From a virus: a stretch of 23,275 bases of DNA. This document shows, in pieces, positions 11,250 to 23,275 of the stretch. The position numbers and the translations under genes were made by a program. A model generated the notes under the pieces. That model ran no database searches and was not told the DNA's origin. It saw only the letters and a program-made list of their open reading frames with translations. How positions within the stretch are numbered: position 1 is the first letter of the stretch; the number at the start of each line of letters is the position of its first letter. The stretch lies in the IMG/VR virus record IMGVR_UViG_3300030382_000877, positions 1 through 23,275 of that record, one strand, 5' to 3'.

Positions 11250-13202
11250 TTACTTTACTGGACAAACTCCTTGCACACATTCATCATCCTCAAGCTCGTG
11301 GATACCTACCGCTTTCTCCCAATCCACCGTGGAAAGCTGAGAGATGTACTCTTCATAGGTTTCTCTGTTGACAACTTGTTGGGGGAGATACTCATATCCT
11401 GCCTTCTCTTCATCAGACATACGGGGAAGAAAGCTAACCCCAACATAAGAAGACCAGTTAGATTTGAGCCAGTTAATAATATATGGGACTTCAGCTTCTT
11501 CATAAGAAACTGTAATCGAGCAGTTCTGCTCAACGTAAGTATCCATAAGAAATTTATAGCGAACCAGTTGTTCAATCGCTCCTTCCATGTTGACATATCT
11601 ATCTTTCTCCTTTGAATAAATGTCTTGACTAAACCTAATGTCTTCCCAAATTACAGGGAATGTGACAATAACATTGTGTTCATCCACAGGATTAGGTATT
11701 ACTCTATACCCTGCTTCCCTTAACTTGGAAACCATTGGGTCATTAACACTGAAGTTTACATTGTTAAATATATATTTTCCCTGAGGTTTATGACAACCCT
11801 CAGTAGTATCCATGATCTTACTGAGTGTCCCACTAGGTTTAATGGTGGTGACATTCTTAGGTCTCTGAGTACCTAGCTCGTCAGCCATAGAGTAAGCACC
11901 ATGTACTGCTATGTTTTTAAACTGTTTATAATCATACTCTGCTAAGTCAGACCGCCTAGCTATACCTGTTAGTCCTACTCCACACAGCCTGAGGTATTCA
12001 TTGTTCTCATGCCATGAGTCTTGGAGTATGCCATCCTTCAGGTTGACTAAGGTTTGTCTGTAGTTAGCCCTAGCTATAAGATAGAGTGCTCTACACAGAC
12101 CATCACTATCATCTTTAAACTTTCCTACGTCTACCTCTGATAGATTACAGAAGCTCTTGTTCCCCAAGAGTATCTCCGCACACGGATTAACACCAGAGAA
12201 CCAAGGTGCTCTCCTTCTAGCCTCAACCCCATTGATAATTCCAGGTTCAGAACCACCAGACTCTTTTATAATATCAAAGAATTGGGTAAGCTCACTATCA
12301 TCAGGCTCTCTCCAGAATACTACAGAGTTATTAGACTGACTCCTATGGGGAGTGTCCTCTAGTTTATCCTTAGCTCTGGCGAATTGTTCCCACTCTGGAT
12401 TATCATAATACATAAGGGCTATCTCTGCTGACCTTCTACTACTGAGCACAGTACCCAACCAGTTCATAATGTCTAGGATATCCATCCTGCTAAGGAGTTG
12501 ACCTGCTTTCTTATTAAGAATCTGAACGATAGATTGGAAGGCTTTAGCTATAGGCTTATCACCTGAGCTTATCCAACCGTATCCAGAGAGTCGTAGTCCT
12601 GAGGGTCTGAGGTTTGATAGATCGAGTACGAACTTTGTAGCTTTCCCTTTGAATGCCAGAAGCTTACCGATACTTTTCGCCCATGCCTCAGCGGAGTCTC
12701 CAATAGCAACTGTCCAAGTCCCTGTATCGGAATCATAAGATTCTCTGTTGGTTTCTCGTCCCCCTTTACTAGTTCGCTTTGAATATTTAACTTCAACTTC
12801 TTTGATTGGCTGTGTGAATCCAGACAACGTTCCGACAACTGGAGTAAATCCGACTCCGCATCCTTGAAGCAAAAGCCACAGACTGTCAACGATATCATGT
12901 ATAGTCTCCACTTTTAAATGAGCACAATTAAATTGACTAGCTTCTCTAGTCTTGGCGATATCAGTACCACCTAACCACAAGGTTCTGCCACTCACAGAAA
13001 CCTTTCGTTCTAGCATGAGCTGACGTAGCTCCTCTAGTTCAGCCCCATTATACATATGTTCTCCTGCCCTACACCATAACCACTTCTGGTGTTCGATGAC
13101 TCTATCTATAGTTTGTTCCCAAGTCTCAAACACCTCACCCTTCTCATCCAACGGTCTACTATAGGTACGTCTTGTAATAATTTCAGCTCTAACTGAAGTC
13201 AT
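11250..13202 (-). CDS. nrdJ: Adenosylcobalamin-dependent (class II) ribonucleotide reductase
   Basis: From ATG at 13202 the product has 650 residues. It reduces ribonucleotides to deoxyribonucleotides, using a cobalamin-generated thiyl radical. The active-site set of the monomeric class II enzyme is visible: QFNCAH (Cys93), NPCAEI (Cys341 and Glu343) and Cys352 in KSFCNLSE, with the same 11-residue spacing as Cys408-Cys419 of the Lactobacillus leichmannii enzyme. A CVQGVC pair lies at the C-terminus for reduction by a thiol carrier. IKPSGTLSKIMDTTEGCH is also typical. It is shorter than the Lactobacillus protein (739). An upstream GTG at 13208 is possible but the ATG has GGAG five bases upstream and an ATGA overlap with the MazG-like gene. 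Cobalamin must come from the host. Confidence 0.96.
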   Translation of the reverse strand: MTSVRAEIITRRTYSRPLDEKGEVFETWEQTIDRVIEHQKWLWCRAGEHMYNGAELEELRQLMLERKVSVSGRTLWLGGTDIAKTREASQFNCAHLKVETIHDIVDSLWLLLQGCGVGFTPVVGTLSGFTQPIKEVEVKYSKRTSKGGRETNRESYDSDTGTWTVAIGDSAEAWAKSIGKLLAFKGKATKFVLDLSNLRPSGLRLSGYGWISSGDKPIAKAFQSIVQILNKKAGQLLSRMDILDIMNWLGTVLSSRRSAEIALMYYDNPEWEQFARAKDKLEDTPHRSQSNNSVVFWREPDDSELTQFFDIIKESGGSEPGIINGVEARRRAPWFSGVNPCAEILLGNKSFCNLSEVDVGKFKDDSDGLCRALYLIARANYRQTLVNLKDGILQDSWHENNEYLRLCGVGLTGIARRSDLAEYDYKQFKNIAVHGAYSMADELGTQRPKNVTTIKPSGTLSKIMDTTEGCHKPQGKYIFNNVNFSVNDPMVSKLREAGYRVIPNPVDEHNVIVTFPVIWEDIRFSQDIYSKEKDRYVNMEGAIEQLVRYKFLMDTYVEQNCSITVSYEEAEVPYIINWLKSNWSSYVGVSFLPRMSDEEKAGYEYLPQQVVNRETYEEYISQLSTVDWEKAVGIHELEDDECVQGVCPVK

Positions 13203-13570
13203 ACACACTCCTCTAAGACAGGTGGTTTATAATTTTTACCTTTAAGTATCTTCCCCTTCTCATCTTTAGTAAACGGATACTTACTCATGTTAGATTTATG
13301 AACAAACTCAAAAGCCTTATCAAAATCTAAACCAAATGACAATGCAGTTCCCTTTATAACATAGACAACATCACACATTTCTTTCAGGAAATCTTGCATA
13401 AGAACATGGCGTTCTTCTAAGTCTAAGTTACCCTCTAAATCTAGACCAACCTCAGCAAGCTCTTGAACCTCTTCAAATATTAATCTCATTCTCAGCTCAA
13501 GTAATTCCTTACTGAACGGTTGGTCTATTGCAAGCTCCATTTTCTCATGGAACTCTCTAACTTTTTTCAT
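13199..13570 (-). CDS. MazG-like nucleotide pyrophosphohydrolase
   Basis: This 123-residue all-helical protein carries the metal-binding pattern of the NTP pyrophosphohydrolase superfamily (MazG, dUTPase-2, HisE): EEVQE (Glu33, Glu34, Glu37) and KEMCD (Glu64, Asp67), followed by a DVVYVIKGTALSFGLD helix and the HKSNMSK loop that often contacts the substrate. It probably hydrolyses a nucleoside triphosphate to the monophosphate and pyrophosphate; the substrate cannot be read from sequence. In phages such enzymes are thought to cleanse or redirect the nucleotide pool, or to lower (p)ppGpp. The neighbouring reductase favours the first. The gene overlaps both neighbours by a few bases. Confidence 0.85.
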   Translation of the reverse strand: MKKVREFHEKMELAIDQPFSKELLELRMRLIFEEVQELAEVGLDLEGNLDLEERHVLMQDFLKEMCDVVYVIKGTALSFGLDFDKAFEFVHKSNMSKYPFTKDEKGKILKGKNYKPPVLEECV

Positions 13571-13799: not shown

Positions 13800-14530
13800 A
13801 ACAATACCTCTTCATTTTTAAAGTTATAGTCTTCAGCCCTTAGTATCCTAGCTACCCTAGCTTGGGTAAGAGCTGCGAATTCATCTAGCCCTGCCTTAGC
13901 AAAAGCATCTACCACCGTCTGCCACTTCACACCCTCTTCTCTTAATAAAATATCAGCTTTCTTTTTCCCGATACCTGGACAGCCCTTATAGTTATCAACC
14001 GCATCACCTGTCAACGTCTGATAGTAAAACATAAAGTCTGCTTTGTCCTCATCTATTTCCATCAGTTCTTCTGAGTCCATGTTAAAATACTCACATGGAA
14101 TTGTCATCATATCTTTATCAATAGATATAATAATGTTCCTGTCTTTAGTTGAAGTGGCAAGCACCCCCAAGGCATCATCAGCCTCACAATTATCGAGGAC
14201 ACAAGAATTGTAAGTTAATTTTAAATGTTTCTCCAGATGATTATACCCTAGAGGCTTCTTACCACCTTTTCGGTTTGCTTTATATTCGGGAAAAATTTTT
14301 CGCCTAAAATTATTTGTCCTATCTGAGAAGCAGAGTATAACGTGCTCTCTATCTGAGACTCCAAACCTTTCCTTCCAGTATTCTACTGAATTTACAGACT
14401 GAGCCTCAAGCTCTTTGAGATTAGTAGCAGTAGTAACAATACCATCATCCCACTCTACTTCTTTTTGTACTGCCCAACAAGTTCTGTATGTAAGAATGTC
14501 TGCGTCTATTAATAACCTCGTAGTGTCCAT
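13781..14530 (-). CDS. 5'-3' exonuclease (T7 gp6-like, FEN/PIN family)
   Basis: The product has 249 residues (T7 gp6 has 300). Metal-binding acidic residues of the FEN family are visible: LIDADIL (Asp9, Asp11), FRRKIFPEYKANR, CEADDALG (Glu116, Asp118, Asp119), ISIDKDMM (Asp138, Asp140) and GDAVDN (Asp176, Asp179), followed by the helix-three-turn-helix GCPGIGKKKA at about 183-192. It removes RNA primers and degrades host DNA to nucleotides for reuse. The ATG at 14530 is fixed by the LIDAD motif just after it and a GGGGG-type ribosome binding site. Oddly, the first 86 bases also encode the out-of-frame tail of the HNH endonuclease. Confidence 0.95.
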   Translation of the reverse strand: MDTTRLLIDADILTYRTCWAVQKEVEWDDGIVTTATNLKELEAQSVNSVEYWKERFGVSDREHVILCFSDRTNNFRRKIFPEYKANRKGGKKPLGYNHLEKHLKLTYNSCVLDNCEADDALGVLATSTKDRNIIISIDKDMMTIPCEYFNMDSEELMEIDEDKADFMFYYQTLTGDAVDNYKGCPGIGKKKADILLREEGVKWQTVVDAFAKAGLDEFAALTQARVARILRAEDYNFKNEEVLLWTPTN

Positions 14531-14849
14531 TTAAGCCCCCTTCATGAGCATGAATTTTATAATGACAGTTTTCACAAACGTATATACATTTGAGAACTTC
14601 TTTAATTAGTTTAACCTTATTCTTTTTACCAAGACCACCCAACACAGTTAATTTCTTTTTACTAGGATCAACATGATGAAAATTAAATGATCTAGTTGGG
14701 TTTCTAAAACTACATACCTCACAAGTATAATCTTTTAACCAACATAAAAATGATGCCCTTACAGAATTTTGAAATCGGTTATAGTTAGACCTATTAGTTT
14801 TAGATTTATAAGGATTATCTTTTAGAAGAAAGTTTCTATCTCTCTCCAT
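14445..14849 (-). CDS. HNH endonuclease, probably a homing endonuclease
   Basis: From ATG at 14849 the product has 134 residues. It has the HNH layout with zinc-binding cysteines: CEVC (Cys43, Cys46), FNFHHVDPSKKK (His58, His59, Asp61) and CENCHYKIH (Cys92, Cys95, His96, His100). The N-terminal 40 residues are rich in Lys/Arg/Asn, consistent with DNA binding. It lies between DNA polymerase and exonuclease, a typical site for free-standing homing endonucleases in T7-like phages. The open frame extends upstream to an ATG at 14996, inside the polymerase gene, which would add 49 residues. I prefer 14849 because it avoids that overlap, although its AAAGGAG is about 12 bases away. The stop lies 86 bases inside the exonuclease gene. 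Confidence 0.85.
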   Translation of the reverse strand: MERDRNFLLKDNPYKSKTNRSNYNRFQNSVRASFLCWLKDYTCEVCSFRNPTRSFNFHHVDPSKKKLTVLGGLGKKNKVKLIKEVLKCIYVCENCHYKIHAHEGGLNGHYEVINRRRHSYIQNLLGSTKRSRVG

Positions 14850-14874
14850 AAAAGAAACCAGCTCCTTTACAGTC

Positions 14875-16704
14875 TTAATGCGTTTCTGCCCAAGTTTCTC
14901 CAATTTTTGCAGTTGCGGAAAGTGGGCAACCAAACTCAAAGAATTCCCCTGCGGATTGAATCGCTCCCTCAGCGTAGGTGGCAATAGTTCTAGCATAGCG
15001 TTTAGTTACCTCGATTTGAAATTCATCATGTATGTTAGCAACAAACTCATAGTCTGTGCGTGGCATAAGCCCACAAAATTGTAATCGTTTGTCTAATATA
15101 ACTAGAGCCTTCTTCATAAGCACTGCACCTGCTGACTGAAGCAGAGTGTTTAACGCACTGTGCTCCGATCTAATATGTAATTTCCTACCATCAAGTCCTA
15201 TCAAATATCCCCTTCTTCTATAGGTTTCTTTAACTTTGTTGGTAAGATCATCTAAGCCTGTAACATTCTGTAAAAACCTACGCCTTGATAATCTACCTGC
15301 CTTTATTCCCTTACCTAGTATAGCTCCTAGCTTGGTATCACCTGCCCCATAGATGAAAGCATAAAACCAAGTCTTTGCTGTGTCACGGTTCTCTATCTTA
15401 AGAGCCTTCATGTTAAGGGTATGTATGTCAGTACCCTTAGACTTACTTCCAGATACAGCAGCTTCTACATACTTACCACCATCATACCTAGTCATGTATC
15501 CTGCTAGTGCTCTAAGCTCTAGCCCATCAGCATCCACTCCTACTAATTGTTTCCCATCACTAACACCGAACAAACCCCTGCACTCCTTACCGTAAGGACT
15601 ATAAGAGGCAGGAACTTGAGCTATATTAGGATAAGAGTGAGTACAACGTCCAGTAATTGCTCCATTTGTGTTTACCCTTCCATGTAGTCTGCCGTTACGT
15701 TCAAGTTTAAGCCAAGCGTTATCACCCTCAGCCAGTTGAGAAATACGTTTGCTAATTAAGAAGTGTTCTTTAAGTTCTTTACAGTTTGGATAATCAAGCT
15801 TAGATAGTATTGCCTCGTTCACTTCTGGTTTCCCACCTGGAGTAAAAGAGTTTGGTATCCATCCATACAATGTCTGCAATCGAGACGATATATGGTCTCT
15901 GGAATTCGGGTTGAATTCCACAGTTTTAATCTTAGTAAGCTTATCTCCAGTTGTGTAGCCTCGTTTCTCGTTATCTTTCTTTGGAGTAAACTCTCCTTCA
16001 GAAACGTACCAACTGCCAAATGAATCCCTGAGCTTTTTAGCAAGTGCTTCTTGATTTTTAAGTAAGCTAACATATAGTTCTTGTCCTTTCTTTACATCAA
16101 AATGAAAGCCATGTTTTTCCTGTCTAGCTATGATCAATGCAAACTCATGTTCTATTTCTACTGAATCATTAGGTGGTTCTTGATCTAAGAAATGATAATA
16201 CAAATCAAGAGTGACCTGAACATCCTGCACACAATACTTAGCCATCTCCATAGTAAACTTAGACCAATCGGCAGTCTCACCGTAACTGTCTTTAAGTTCT
16301 CCATTACGTTGACCCCAAGCTTTTAAACCATGACTACCCCATAGCTTAGTCTCTACCTTTCGCTCCTTAGCATCCAGTTCCTTTAAGTCTGGATGAATCA
16401 ATCGAGACAGGACTAGAGTATCTACAATTTTAGTAGTCTTACGAGGAGTCCAGTTTAACACCTTCTTTAAAACAGGCAGGTCATACCCTATAATATTATG
16501 ACCTATCAAAGTATCAGCATCTTTCATTAAATCAAGAGCATCATCCAGACATTCATAAGAATTAAATTCATAATTCATAAAGTGTCCTAGCTCATTTGCA
16601 TACAGTTGACCTGCCTTTGCACCCACTACAGCCAACCCTATACAATGTACCTTATCTACTGTATCAAGTAGTCCATTAGTTTCTAGGTCAAAAACAAGTT
16701 CCAT
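14875..16704 (-). CDS. Family A DNA polymerase with 3'-5' exonuclease (T7 gp5-like)
   Basis: The product has 609 residues (T7 gp5 has 704). The proofreading domain has Exo I FDLET (Asp6, Glu8), Exo II HNIIGYD (Asn70, Asp75) and Exo III YCVQD (Tyr157, Asp161). The polymerase domain has motif A GVDADGLELR (Asp391), motif B RDTAKTWFYAFIYGAG (Arg440, Lys444, Tyr448, Tyr452) and motif C NIHDEFQIEV (Asp560, Glu561). Tyr448 matches T7 Tyr526. The protein ends in His, as T7 gp5 does. The Exo III to motif A distance is 230 residues against 301 in T7, so the roughly 76-residue thioredoxin-binding insertion is probably absent. ATG at 16704 overlaps an upstream TAA (TAATG). Confidence 0.96.
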   Translation of the reverse strand: MELVFDLETNGLLDTVDKVHCIGLAVVGAKAGQLYANELGHFMNYEFNSYECLDDALDLMKDADTLIGHNIIGYDLPVLKKVLNWTPRKTTKIVDTLVLSRLIHPDLKELDAKERKVETKLWGSHGLKAWGQRNGELKDSYGETADWSKFTMEMAKYCVQDVQVTLDLYYHFLDQEPPNDSVEIEHEFALIIARQEKHGFHFDVKKGQELYVSLLKNQEALAKKLRDSFGSWYVSEGEFTPKKDNEKRGYTTGDKLTKIKTVEFNPNSRDHISSRLQTLYGWIPNSFTPGGKPEVNEAILSKLDYPNCKELKEHFLISKRISQLAEGDNAWLKLERNGRLHGRVNTNGAITGRCTHSYPNIAQVPASYSPYGKECRGLFGVSDGKQLVGVDADGLELRALAGYMTRYDGGKYVEAAVSGSKSKGTDIHTLNMKALKIENRDTAKTWFYAFIYGAGDTKLGAILGKGIKAGRLSRRRFLQNVTGLDDLTNKVKETYRRRGYLIGLDGRKLHIRSEHSALNTLLQSAGAVLMKKALVILDKRLQFCGLMPRTDYEFVANIHDEFQIEVTKRYARTIATYAEGAIQSAGEFFEFGCPLSATAKIGETWAETH

Positions 16705-19497: not shown

Positions 19498-19764
19498 TTA
19501 TAATTCTCCTTGAATGAATTTTTCCGCACCCCCGAACTCTGGAATGCCCTTTCGTTTACAATCTACCCTAATACGGTCAACAATCTGCATCACTTCTGTT
19601 AATGTTCTCTCTCCTTTCAATTTAGAGTTAAACATACAGTTAAAGATACTACAAATTATAGCGTACTTCTCTGCCTTACTATAGTTCCCTAGTACATCAA
19701 CTGCTTCCATCATGCCAGATGAAACCTTCTCAATATTTACATTAGCTAAAAAAGAATTCTGCAT
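19498..19764 (-). CDS. Small protein between RNA polymerase and SSB, unknown function
   Basis: The product has 88 residues and begins MQNSFLANVNIEKVSSGMME. The middle is helical (VLGNYSKAEKYAIICSIFNC), followed by a Lys/Arg-rich region. It has four cysteines without a metal-binding spacing and no membrane segment. I do not recognise the family. ATG at 19764 has GAGG six bases upstream and overlaps the last 23 bases of the RNA polymerase gene. In T7 this interval holds the ligase and kinase/inhibitor genes, none of which resemble this protein. Confidence 0.6.
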   Translation of the reverse strand: MQNSFLANVNIEKVSSGMMEAVDVLGNYSKAEKYAIICSIFNCMFNSKLKGERTLTEVMQIVDRIRVDCKRKGIPEFGGAEKFIQGEL

Positions 19765-22147
19765 TTATTACCTCACTTATGCACAGTATACCATAGCCAT
19801 ATGGCTTTTGCAAGTTAATTTTTTGTTCTAACCTAAACTTCTCTAAAACATCTTCTTCATATATCTCTACAAATTTTTCTCGTAAAATCATTCCTAGTCG
19901 TTCAATGTCGCAAGCGTGAGTGCCAAAAGAATCATGAACCACAGAAAAACTGTTAATTGAGAACTCATCGTTAGCTCCTATCACTGTCTTCATAAGGTGA
20001 CACGCATCTAAACTATGAACAAAATTAGGTGCTATGCCATTAATCTGCCTATGCTTGTTTATTTTATCGTTTTGTCCATGAGCTGCATATAGTGAAGCCA
20101 TCTTTCCATTGATTACAGTTTTTACCTGAGACACAGTAGACTTTAAATACTTCTGCTTTACCATGAACCCTGTAGGTAGCGTCCAGTATATAGGCATATC
20201 AGCCTTGTTTAAAACAGAAGCACACTCCTGAAGCCATTTCATACCCTCTCTTGCAGAGATAACAACCTCTCCGATAGCCTCGTAGATAAACCCTGCTAGA
20301 TACTTACAGTGTACCCACAGGTCTTCTCCCTCTGCAATACCATCAAAGACCTTCCCTTTATCTAATTGCTTTTTCATTTCTTCATGGAGCTGTTCTCTCA
20401 TGCCGTACAGGGTAGCCCCATAAGGGGTGGTCATTACTGGACGTTTAACAAGGGAACGATCAAGATTTTTATCGCTACTCCATATAGTATGCAAAGGATT
20501 GCAATCATGAAATATTTTTTCTTTGACCACTTTTCTGACGATCTCATATATGTCCTCTGGTTGATCTGAGTTAGTAAGATTAACAGCCTTACCCCCACGC
20601 TCATCTCTAAGCATAGCTGAGAAATGCTGTAGTCCATTACATGAACCATCTACGGTAATAGGAAGATGACTGACCCACTTCTCCCCCCACTTACCAAGTT
20701 CCTTAACTTTAACATACTCAATACACGCCCTCAGGAATTGCCATGGCTTATCGGCTTCCATCCACCAATGCTCTGTAAGTGGATTTTTACCTATATCAAG
20801 AATAGCTTGTTCATGAAATAAAGTCCACTCTACTCTATCCTCTAATGAAACCTTATCATAGCCATAGCAATTAGCTAAGTGGACCTGGAGCCAAGGCATA
20901 CCACTATTACCCATAGGTTTACCATCAGAGAACTCCAGTAAACCCCTAGCTGAGTCTTCCCCCTGAGGATTTAGGAATGCTGTGTTAGCATACATCCTAC
21001 CCCTGAAGTCCAGAGTGTGAGGGAAATAAAAAGTTTTTTCATTTTGAAATTTACGAGTCATCCACATGAGCTGAGAAAATTGTATACGCTTAGTTTTCTT
21101 CCTAACGTTATCGGTATACATTACCGTAGCTCTACGCTTCCATTCTATTTGTTCTTCCTTAGTACCCTTCTTAGGGTATGGGTCAGGCATAGTCTTTTCA
21201 TGAAACTCAGGAATGACATTACAACTAGCCTGACTAGTAAACAGGGCATCCATAACTTTAAAGACAGTTTTGTTAACTCTCCACCCTGTCTCCTGTACCA
21301 CGTTTACCGCATGGAACACCTCAGATAAGTCCATGTGCTCCATCTGTTTGAGGTAGGCAGCATCATTGGTTTTTATCAAGTTCATTCCAGTATAGGTATA
21401 GTAACCACCCACATAAATAGAACTCCACTTTCTAGGTGGTATAATACAAGGCAACTTAACTGGACTTAATAACTCACAGATAGAATTTTTCTTATCTATC
21501 CATTTAAGTGATTCCTCAGTAGCTTCTAGCCAATAACTTGTTTTCTTACCTTGCACCAAACCTGTGTGTTTCTTTATCTCAAAGAGTTTTGTGTGGTTAC
21601 ATATTATTTCACAAAGCATTTGACCTAACCGTAACCTAATAGTGGTAGACCAGTTCTGCCATTCAACCTCAGCCTTATTTGCTGAGTGAACTAAAACTCT
21701 CTTCTGTTTCCTGTAGTTGGTAGTTCGCTTTGACAAGTCCCTAGAAACTACACCAAACAGAGCAGGGTTCTCAGTTTTAAAATGTCTAAACCTTACCTCA
21801 TCCTCGATAAAACCACCAACCTCTAAAGATACTTTAACTAATTTTACTGGAGTAGAAAGGTGGTTAACACAACCCTTCAGAGCTAGGAACGCTATGACCT
21901 CAGACGGTAGATCAAAGAGTTTACCAATAGCATCTGAAGGATATTTGTTAACCTTCCCTGTCATGTAGTCTACTTTTATTTCATCTATCTGTTTAACTAT
22001 CCTGCCTATACCCTTCCTGATAAATTGGATACCTGCTGGAGTGGTACTCTCATGCTTACCCTTACGGGCATCAACATTCTCCCTGCGGTAACGCAGCACC
22101 CCCAAATCAACCATTTCCTTTTCTAAATCTTTTTGTCTTTGTAACAT
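19742..22147 (-). CDS. Single-subunit phage RNA polymerase (T7 gp1-like)
   Basis: From ATG at 22147 the product has 801 residues (T7 has 883). Catalytic elements are complete: motif A VDGSCNGLQHFSAMLRD (Asp500, T7 Asp537), motif B VKRPVMTTPYGATLYG (Lys568 and Tyr576, T7 Lys631 and Tyr639) and motif C VVHDSFGTHACD (Asp739, T7 Asp812). DFRGRMYANTAFLNPQGED is also typical. It transcribes the middle and late genes from its own promoters, which I could not define here. The longer frame from TTG at 22186 lacks a ribosome binding site; the ATG at 22147 overlaps the preceding membrane gene by 25 bases and has only a weak site, so ATG 22114 is a further alternative. The C-terminus ends FFFS, where T7 ends in FAFA. 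Confidence 0.96.
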   Translation of the reverse strand: MLQRQKDLEKEMVDLGVLRYRRENVDARKGKHESTTPAGIQFIRKGIGRIVKQIDEIKVDYMTGKVNKYPSDAIGKLFDLPSEVIAFLALKGCVNHLSTPVKLVKVSLEVGGFIEDEVRFRHFKTENPALFGVVSRDLSKRTTNYRKQKRVLVHSANKAEVEWQNWSTTIRLRLGQMLCEIICNHTKLFEIKKHTGLVQGKKTSYWLEATEESLKWIDKKNSICELLSPVKLPCIIPPRKWSSIYVGGYYTYTGMNLIKTNDAAYLKQMEHMDLSEVFHAVNVVQETGWRVNKTVFKVMDALFTSQASCNVIPEFHEKTMPDPYPKKGTKEEQIEWKRRATVMYTDNVRKKTKRIQFSQLMWMTRKFQNEKTFYFPHTLDFRGRMYANTAFLNPQGEDSARGLLEFSDGKPMGNSGMPWLQVHLANCYGYDKVSLEDRVEWTLFHEQAILDIGKNPLTEHWWMEADKPWQFLRACIEYVKVKELGKWGEKWVSHLPITVDGSCNGLQHFSAMLRDERGGKAVNLTNSDQPEDIYEIVRKVVKEKIFHDCNPLHTIWSSDKNLDRSLVKRPVMTTPYGATLYGMREQLHEEMKKQLDKGKVFDGIAEGEDLWVHCKYLAGFIYEAIGEVVISAREGMKWLQECASVLNKADMPIYWTLPTGFMVKQKYLKSTVSQVKTVINGKMASLYAAHGQNDKINKHRQINGIAPNFVHSLDACHLMKTVIGANDEFSINSFSVVHDSFGTHACDIERLGMILREKFVEIYEEDVLEKFRLEQKINLQKPYGYGILCISEVINAEFFFS

Positions 22148-22350
22148 TGTCTTATATAGTCCAAGTAAATAAAAATTAAACCACAATCAATTATTAAAAA
22201 TCCAAACTGTTTACTGTAAATCCAGTAACTCACCCAACACGTTTGGCAAGCCACTCCGACATAGCCACCATACCTATGGTTTATAGCTATGAGCCTGACC
22301 GACAGTAAAGCAAATAAAGATAATACAACTTCAAGAACATGGTGCATCAT
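22123..22350 (-). CDS. Small membrane protein with three predicted helices
   Basis: This 75-residue protein has three hydrophobic stretches: about 5-23 (VLEVVLSLFALLSVRLIAI), 28-45 (GGYVGVACQTCWVSYWIY) and 48-66 (FGFLIIDCGLIFIYLDYI), with a basic C-terminus. The pattern R.G...GL..Q..W......FG followed by a last helix ending in Arg resembles small phage inner-membrane proteins, some with PnuC-like repeats; this is only a resemblance. Its ATGATG start overlaps the TGA of the cyclic-nucleotide-binding gene, so the two are likely co-translated. The stop lies inside the RNA polymerase start region. A function as holin cannot be excluded, but its early position speaks against it. Confidence 0.6.
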   Translation of the reverse strand: MMHHVLEVVLSLFALLSVRLIAINHRYGGYVGVACQTCWVSYWIYSKQFGFLIIDCGLIFIYLDYIRQCYKDKKI

Positions 22351-22733
22351 TCTTCAGGTGTTCCAGTAAACTTCTCAATCAAGTCCAGGGTATCCCTGAG
22401 CCTACTTCCTAACACCTTCAAGATAGGCATAAGAGCCTTTGGGTTATCCTTAGTCAGCTTAACAGCGTCCTCTTCAGTCAATACCTTTAGCTCTAACCTA
22501 CTCTTAGCTTTAATTGTAGCTGTACGAGGCTTACGATCAAGCCAACCTATCTCACCAAATATCTCACCTTCTTTTAGTGTTGCTAGGTGAATCTCTTGAG
22601 CAGGTAAATTTCTATTGTAGATAGTTTTAAATACATCCACCTCACCATCTACGATAATGTAAGCTTCAAAACTTAACTCCCCTTCATCTAAAACTGTTTG
22701 TCCTTTATTATAAAACTGTGTTTTAGAACCCAT
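22347..22733 (-). CDS. Stand-alone cyclic-nucleotide-binding domain protein
   Basis: The 128-residue product is a complete CAP/PKA-type cyclic-nucleotide-binding domain and little else. Visible are the strands KGQTVLDEGELSFEAYIIVDG, the GEVDVF turn, and the phosphate-binding cassette at 57-74, EIFGEIGWLDRKPRTATI, with Gly60, Glu61 and Arg70, the residues that hold ribose and cyclic phosphate in the family. A C-terminal helical pair (98-121) would be the lid. No DNA-binding helix-turn-helix follows, unlike CRP. The start ATG 22733 has GGTGG upstream. Ligand binding is an inference from the intact cassette; the ligand could be cAMP, cGMP or a pyrimidine cyclic nucleotide. It sits between two tiny membrane proteins, with overlapping stops and starts. 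Confidence 0.88.
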   Translation of the reverse strand: MGSKTQFYNKGQTVLDEGELSFEAYIIVDGEVDVFKTIYNRNLPAQEIHLATLKEGEIFGEIGWLDRKPRTATIKAKSRLELKVLTEEDAVKLTKDNPKALMPILKVLGSRLRDTLDLIEKFTGTPEE

Positions 22734-22809
22734 TTGCTACCACCCCCATTAGATATATAAACAAGGTTACTAATCCTAAGCCAACTACTACATCAGCAAA
22801 TTTTCTCAT
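22723..22809 (-). CDS. 28-residue single-helix membrane peptide
   Basis: The frame reads MRKFADVVVGLGLVTLFIYL then eight more residues ending NGF. It has a basic N-terminus and one uninterrupted hydrophobic helix of about 20 residues. Its ATG overlaps the TGA of the 102-residue gene (ATGA) and its stop lies 11 bases inside the cyclic-nucleotide-binding gene. If it were not translated, a ribosome would find a 73-base gap here, which is unusual for this compact region. It is too short to be judged by homology, so support is from the overlaps and the membrane-helix design only. Confidence 0.5.
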   Translation of the reverse strand: MRKFADVVVGLGLVTLFIYLMGVVANGF

Positions 22810-23114
22810 CTTGGGTCATGTGGTTTAGGTAATTCTATACGATGCCAGAAATGAGGATGACGTATAAACCTAGGACTTGATAGGTCAAAGACTGAATAGC
22901 ATCGGTTATCCTCTCCCGACTGTTTACTTACAAACACCATTTCGTATTTATTTCTAGGTCTATGCCGACAGTTAACAGGATTAGCGTTGTAACTCACTTG
23001 AGTTCCGTTCTCGTGGACTACCTGGATTTGAGTTGGCACTTCATTCAAAGTCCAATCCACCATCTTATGTGGTGGTGGTACTACCAACATTATGGTTACA
23101 AGTAGTTCTCCCAT
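22806..23114 (-). CDS. First gene of the early block, unknown function
   Basis: From the ATG at 23114 the product has 102 residues; a neighbouring ATG at 23117 is too close to the AAAGGAG site. The first 14 residues are hydrophobic (MGELLVTIMLVVPP), short for a signal peptide but possible as a membrane anchor. The rest is polar, with CRHRPRNKYEMVFVSKQSGE, two cysteines at about 50 and 74 that could form a disulphide, and a His/Pro-rich end (HPHFWHRIELPKPHDPR). I do not recognise the family. It is the first gene after the structured leader and is coupled by ATGA to the next small gene. Confidence 0.6.
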   Translation of the reverse strand: MGELLVTIMLVVPPPHKMVDWTLNEVPTQIQVVHENGTQVSYNANPVNCRHRPRNKYEMVFVSKQSGEDNRCYSVFDLSSPRFIRHPHFWHRIELPKPHDPR

Positions 23115-23275
23115 CATCTCTCCTTTCTCTCTGGTTAACAGGCTTAATCGAGACTAGGCAACAAGGAGCTAACTTGGAGAGTTTTGAGGTCTCTAAGGCT
23201 AAAATGCCTGAGAGTCTCCCTGCCCCTAGCCTCTGTTAAGGCTATTACTTTTCAGCTAATGAATTACCTTTATTG
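23115..23275 (-). promoter_or_regulatory. Early leader region without a supported gene
   Basis: On the minus strand this stretch holds a possible end of an upstream reading frame (TAA at 23245), a small hairpin TAGCC-loop-GGCTA (23244-23227), a longer imperfect hairpin (23220-23186) and the AAAGGAG ribosome binding site of the first early gene. The octamer TAAGGCTA (plus strand) occurs twice, at 23194-23201 and 23237-23244. I found no convincing -35/-10 pair. No tRNA cloverleaf could be drawn. A role as transcript leader, terminator of the preceding gene or promoter region is likely but unproved. Confidence 0.4.
23186..23220 (-). other. Imperfect inverted repeat in the early leader
   Basis: On the minus strand GAGACTCTCAGGC and GCCTTAGAGACC flank a six-base loop ATTTTA. 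The inner AGGC/GCCT pairs fully, then one mismatch, then CTCT/AGAG pairs fully, with partial pairing beyond. No T-run follows, so it is not a standard terminator. It could be an RNase III-type processing site, an operator or a recombination site. Confidence 0.45.

Follow-up and report, generated by a model that had tools for sequence, protein, structure and literature searches.

What would a phage do with a cyclic-nucleotide-binding domain (CNBD) to which no output domain is attached? In the window, by which we mean the whole 23,275-nucleotide stretch of viral DNA analysed here, a gene in the region upstream of the RNA polymerase (RNAP) gene had been read as coding for a phage-encoded protein of 128 residues that is only a CAP/PKA-type domain, and its ORF coordinates (Table 1), family and fold all bear out that description. 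PF00027 matches residues 6-95 with 54.8 bits (E 9.2e-15, curated cut-off 27.5), which places the protein in this family, and the best NCBIfam match is CRP, with residues 4-118 aligned to model positions 24-135 (E 7.6e-12) through the dimerisation helix; identity as a CRP proper was rejected, the 45 bits obtained lying far under the equivalog cut-off of 266. The AlphaFold2 (AF2) model, built from a 51-sequence alignment, has a mean pLDDT of 88.4 and a pTM of 0.75, and its best matches among solved structures are CRP, GlxR, MtbCRP and the CNBD of Bd1971 (Foldseek E about 1e-9; Z about 15).

Table 1. Features of the window and of related contigs, and the phage types that carry the domain
Feature	Coordinates	Strand	Evidence or remark
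Stand-alone CNBD protein, 128 aa	22347..22733	(-)	PF00027, CRP model, AF2, PDB fold matches, conservation; codons 22350-22733, stop 22347-22349
Uncharacterised 103-aa ORF	22806..23117	(-)	Directly upstream of CNBD gene; in L003, L004, L006, L009, L010
Small predicted membrane protein, 75 aa	22123..22350	(-)	phrog_2421; downstream of CNBD gene
T7-type single-subunit RNAP	19742..22147	(-)	PF00940, E 5e-118; start MLQRQK inferred from relatives
HNH endonuclease ORF	14445-14996		
Class II (B12-dependent) ribonucleotide reductase	11250-13208		PF21995, PF17975 matches
T4 endonuclease V (DenV)-type UV repair gene	L003:867-1298; L004:1645-2076		phrog_1183, E 2e-46
Divergent stand-alone CNBD	L107:786-1226		Thr-Ser pair
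Locus of CNBD gene with adjoining NifU-domain gene	L111:9209-9918		Also in L113, L120, L121
NifU, ferredoxin and IscA-type gene	L116:2972-5587		Locus with CNBD gene, all within 2.5 kb of it
Locus of CNBD gene with FTR1 iron permease nearby	L112:8187-10041; L117:666-2315		Also in L118
Locus of CNBD gene followed by 2[4Fe-4S] ferredoxin gene	L119:4304-4990		L092/L119 podophages
T7-like podophages			Window group; L092/L119 group (T7 RNAP, phrog_38 terminase); L096 group (terminase)
T4-like myophages			L011 (baseplate genes); others by shared neighbours
Type with phrog_1216 portal and phrog_1328 head protein			L123

The protein consists of a single CNBD in which ~5 residues precede the barrel and the C-terminus forms a helix (residues 98-123 by DSSP), the equivalent of the CRP dimerisation helix, that carries R111, T115 and L116. 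PF00027 is the sole family found, and neither the family search nor the model revealed an HTH, kinase, channel or TIR part. Thus the chain stops at residue 128, past the C-helix, without a match to any HTH family where CRP/FNR proteins have a C-terminal winged HTH; the fused TIR or membrane domain of a Pycsar effector is absent, PF00027 standing alone; one CNBD is present rather than the docking/inhibitor segment and tandem CNBDs of a PKA-type regulatory subunit; and both family and fold are those of a CNBD, not of an MBL-fold phosphodiesterase of the Apyc1 type. A chance ORF or wrong frame is excluded by the PF00027 match (E 9e-15), conservation in relatives and dN/dS well below 1, and contamination of one contig by host DNA is excluded because several contigs, independent of one another, have the gene at this same position upstream of a T7-type RNAP. 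The gene is phage-encoded, as had been claimed, because it adjoins a T7-type RNAP gene in a phage contig and because further viral contigs show this gene order too.

The phosphate-binding cassette, FGEIGWLDRKPRTAT, contains G60, E61 and R70. With mature CRP of E. coli MG1655 as the reference, residues G60, E61, R70, T71, T115 and L116 align with G71, E72, R82, S83, T127 and S128, in agreement with the earlier description of a preserved FGE and PRTAT cassette. The sequence-only reading had looked to close homologues for a loss of the Gly-Glu pair or the Arg, and all three residues proved invariant there (7/7). Among 24 diverse aligned phage versions, L53, F59, G60, E61, R70, A72 and A76 are invariant in 24/24, and once 27 bacterial sequences join the alignment (51 in total, the bacterial-extended set being partly motif-selected) only G60, E61 and R70 are. 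Conservation in the phage set also extends beyond the pocket, to K36, P98, P103, L105 and L53. Structural work on PycTIR places base specificity at the position of CRP Ser128, where Ser or Thr denotes cAMP, Asn143 cUMP and, in XC_0249, Glu146 cGMP (PMC11224242). This position is Leu116 in the window protein and Leu, Met or Ile in nearly all phage relatives, and only the divergent version in L107 has a CRP-like Thr-Ser there. An assignment from the base-specificity residue therefore fails and the ligand cannot be named; with residue 116 hydrophobic, the base contacts would differ from those of known cAMP and cUMP receptors.

About 39 further IMG/VR contigs carry a stand-alone CNBD, mostly of 109-148 aa. 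Two of them (L011 and L012, at 44-45% identity) came from an alignment-based scan, and a degenerate pocket pattern, FGE..xLxxxPR[TSA]AT, scanned over IMG/VR matched 36 stretches, every one of which (36/36) is a single-domain CNBD, typically of 109-148 aa where complete; fusion to an output domain occurred in 0/36 of these pattern-matched stretches. All full-length members have the C-helix except the version in L123, which is 85 aa long. Since this pattern itself requires the pocket, two pocket-blind patterns were used as well. The strand pattern AY[IV]IxxGE[VI]xV matched 39 stretches, comprising 31 CNBDs and 8 chance ORFs, and G-E and R are kept in 31/31 of the CNBDs. The C-helix pattern NPKAxxPIL matched 26 stretches, all family members bar one chance ORF (L134), among which the assessable domains all keep G-E and R; L133 is a new full member with the pocket kept and L132 a fragment that does not cover the pocket. 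Neither pocket-blind search of IMG/VR yielded a pocket-less relative. Because the pocket is invariant and these searches turned up no decayed version, ligand binding very probably matters to the phage protein. All 24 phage rows fall on one side of the tree, with weak support (65/36) and long branches, so a single origin of the phage versions is possible and too weakly supported to be taken as established.

A protein 77-86% identical to that of the window is encoded at seven IMG/VR loci, and in the close relatives with enough flank the gene lies just upstream of a T7-type RNAP. Pairwise dN/dS within the window group is 0.04-0.13 (dS approaches saturation in the most divergent comparisons). Conservation of the CNBD exceeds that of the single-stranded-DNA-binding protein and of the ORFs upstream (102-103 aa) and downstream (88 aa) and, in comparisons with L010 and L003, that of the RNAP. 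By these measures the gene is slow-evolving and under purifying selection. It had been proposed that preserved pocket residues in a fast-evolving early gene indicate that binding matters; the preserved pocket, invariant and with no decayed versions, holds as a sign of selection, whereas the fast evolution is contradicted by the dN/dS range and by conservation above several neighbours. Early expression may be suggested from position only, and a promoter scan found sites no commoner than in shuffled sequence. Between L009 and L010 the CNBD is 89% identical and the RNAP 67%, a difference between neighbouring genes that points to recombination around the locus.

The presence of the CNBD in at least three unrelated phage types is supported by the marker genes in Table 1, and L107, with a 52.5-kb contig whose gene content, including a YqaJ-like gene, was read by eye, is probably a fourth. 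In L011, T4-type baseplate wedge genes (phrog_219, phrog_261) are found close to the CNBD gene; PF07068 was rejected as a T4 marker, having matched only G020, and the baseplate wedge families served to identify L011 instead. No credible member was found among 50,697 phage records, and no PHROG matches the protein. Named phages give few matches, all of them weak (26-31% identical); the annotated ones are bacterial records or crp genes, and the others carry no annotation. The viral-protein structure library does contain a phage protein that resembles CRP over its full length (A0A6J5RKH2, 216 aa) and so differs in its arrangement. For the window RNAP the nearest named phages are 34-37% identical and infect many hosts. 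The window phage, T7-like by its polymerase, also encodes a class II ribonucleotide reductase, and its HNH endonuclease ORF overlaps the end of the DNA polymerase A gene by ~120 bases and looks like a homing-type insertion.

The genes around the CNBD gene bear on whether it serves a partner. It had been suggested that the protein might be a regulatory subunit for such a partner, which in phage-encoded form could be the membrane protein encoded downstream, as a split relative of a Pycsar membrane effector, or else the 102-103-aa protein encoded upstream. The ATG of the 75-aa membrane-protein ORF overlaps the CNBD stop (ATGATG), making coupled translation possible, the gene is likewise followed by ORFs for small membrane proteins in L011, L096 and L107, and conservation of the upstream ORF extends across the window group. 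However, that ORF is conserved beside the CNBD gene only in this group and has no Pfam family or named-phage relative, the small membrane ORFs belong to no common family, and in close relatives the place of the 75-aa ORF is taken by DenV (L003, L004) or by a 59-aa basic ORF (L006, L008), with unrelated neighbours in the T4-like and L092 groups. Since the flanking genes vary from one phage type to another, and the downstream gene even among close relatives, an obligate phage-encoded partner appears unlikely; the phage-partner form of the suggestion is weakened accordingly, and we consider it rather improbable. In L003 and L004 the start of the UV repair gene overlaps the CNBD stop. Membership of a cyclase or MBL-phosphodiesterase module gained no support, as neither a class III cyclase (PF00211) nor a Lactamase_B_2 phosphodiesterase matched in 24 related contigs, which are fragments, with controls in both searches behaving as expected; the window ORFs were family-searched in part. 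A further reading ties the CNBD, as an auxiliary regulator, to the iron or redox metabolism of the host, its gene travelling together with genes for Fe-S proteins and iron uptake. NifU-domain genes adjoin the CNBD gene in four T4-like contigs, NifU, ferredoxin and IscA-type genes lie close by in another, FTR1 is near it in three, and in the L092/L119 podophages a ferredoxin gene begins a few bases past the CNBD stop. Such genes were not detected in the window group, L107, L114, L123 or L124, however, and the locus may merely be rich in auxiliary genes, so we give this role little credence and treat the proximity as no more than a lead. The same ferredoxin type occurs in T7-like and T4-like contigs.

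The main competing explanation looks to the host instead: the protein would be a ligand-controlled modulator that docks on a host protein, with or without nucleotide, either as a heterodimer with host CRP through the C-helix, leaving one DNA-binding half and repressing CRP-dependent genes, or as a regulatory subunit of a host enzyme. That the CRP match spans the dimerisation helix and ends just before the HTH speaks for such docking, as do the retention of the C-helix in every full-length member except the 85-aa version and the conserved positions outside the pocket, which suggest added constraints. Against this, an identity to CRP of only about 25-30% leaves no specific heterodimer interface in evidence, and occurrence in phages that differ greatly and presumably infect different hosts favours a small-molecule target; we regard docking on a host protein as unlikely, though a serious minority possibility. 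As for a counter-defence sponge specific to the Pycsar signals cCMP or cUMP, which are established cyclic mononucleotide signals of that system (PMC11224242), the PADLOC PycTIR profile does match residues 4-122 (1.2e-8), but this match reflects the shared domain and the CRP match is stronger. Moreover, the Asn143 that specifies cUMP in PycTIR (PMC11224242) is replaced by Leu116, and by Leu, Met or Ile in nearly all relatives, so that the specific Pycsar link raised by the sequence-only reading is not supported and retains, in our view, a slight chance.

As the protein lacks both an output domain and a conserved phage partner, its likeliest job is sequestration of a host signal by a functional 3',5'-cyclic mononucleotide binder, a reading that had been raised as a sponge from the sequence alone and that we favour tentatively and at somewhat less than an even chance. 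The beta barrel, with its intact phosphate-binding cassette and with the C-terminal helix as a cap, would very probably bind a 3',5'-cyclic mononucleotide, with the ribose 2'-OH held by Glu61 and Gly60, the cyclic phosphate by Arg70 and Thr71, and the base covered as the C-helix closes; from established CNBD biology, dimerisation through the C-helix as in CRP may be expected. If expressed early in infection, the protein would then sequester the nucleotide and blunt a host signal, whether cAMP/cGMP physiology or a nucleotide-triggered defence, by analogy with Tad1, Tad2 and Acb2. That phages make use of sponges is established (PMC12043709). Counted against sequestration are the Fe-S and iron neighbours in several T4-like and T7-like phages, which defence evasion alone leaves unexplained, and the 85-aa version in L123, which lacks the C-helix. 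A sponge must also be abundant relative to its ligand, and some CNBD-fold proteins bind no cyclic nucleotide, both of which likewise weigh against it.

The domain as such is familiar; its deployment on its own, by phages of several types, appears not to have been described. Sponging of defence signals by phages is known for cyclic oligonucleotides and ADP-ribose signals, and their Apyc1 cleaves cyclic mononucleotides. Searches of open-access full text in PMC yielded no description of phage CNBD proteins, nor did we find a described phage protein that merely binds a cyclic mononucleotide. A broader claim, that bare CRP-type domains form a widespread, uncatalogued family of cyclic-mononucleotide sponges common to unrelated T7-like, T4-like and other phages, is one that we entertain but doubt. 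If true, these would be the first viral proteins known to us that capture a cyclic mononucleotide signal by non-enzymatic means, and their existence would point towards a cNMP-based defence not yet recognised, or towards a takeover of cAMP, in the hosts. That one invariant pocket recurs in phages of unrelated types implies that they face a pressure in common, either a host signal that all would profit from silencing or an unrecognised defence triggered by a cNMP, and suggests that many phages may capture or read a host signal nucleotide. Since the family is absent from PHROGs and effectively from cultured-phage records, it is overlooked by current genome annotation. These small single-domain proteins should purify easily, making both the ligand and the effect on infection directly testable.

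The phage protein can be compared with several known systems. The CNBD of the Bd1971 EAL phosphodiesterase and the PKA regulatory subunit are close structural matches (Z about 15), but they control a fused or bound enzyme, of which the phage CNBD protein has none. The Pycsar effectors PycTIR and PycTM have a CRP-type CNBD with the invariant G-E and R (PMC11224242), whereas the phage protein has no effector part, cUMP-specifying Asn or N-terminal extension, has no cyclase match in the contigs searched, and is a phage rather than a host gene. Apyc1 is likewise a phage protein that acts on cyclic mononucleotides, an action that is hypothetical for the phage CNBD, but it is an MBL-fold enzyme and the CNBD has no catalytic site (PMC9117128). 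With the Tad1, Tad2, Acb2 and Acb4 sponges the proposed common logic is that of a small phage protein holding a signal nucleotide uncleaved; those proteins belong to families other than PF00027 and target cyclic oligonucleotides or ADP-ribose signals, binding by the phage CNBD is predicted, and among the top matches of the fold searches CNBD proteins came first and no known sponge was listed. Stand-alone CNBDs of alphaproteobacteria (SAR116, Rhodobacteraceae; L021, L022, L027, L059) resemble the phage proteins in being single-domain, about 115-150 aa long and equipped with FGE and R, but are 27-30% identical to the phage CNBD, have Asn (which specifies cUMP in PycTIR) or Asp at the base-specificity position and are set apart from the phage set in the tree (weak support). 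Although the CRP/CAP proteins (E. coli CRP, MtbCRP, GlxR and T. thermophilus CAP) differ in their HTH output domain, in Ser128 (Leu116 in the phage) and in an identity of about 25-32%, their N-terminal domain shares the fold, the cassette and the C-helix with the phage CNBD.
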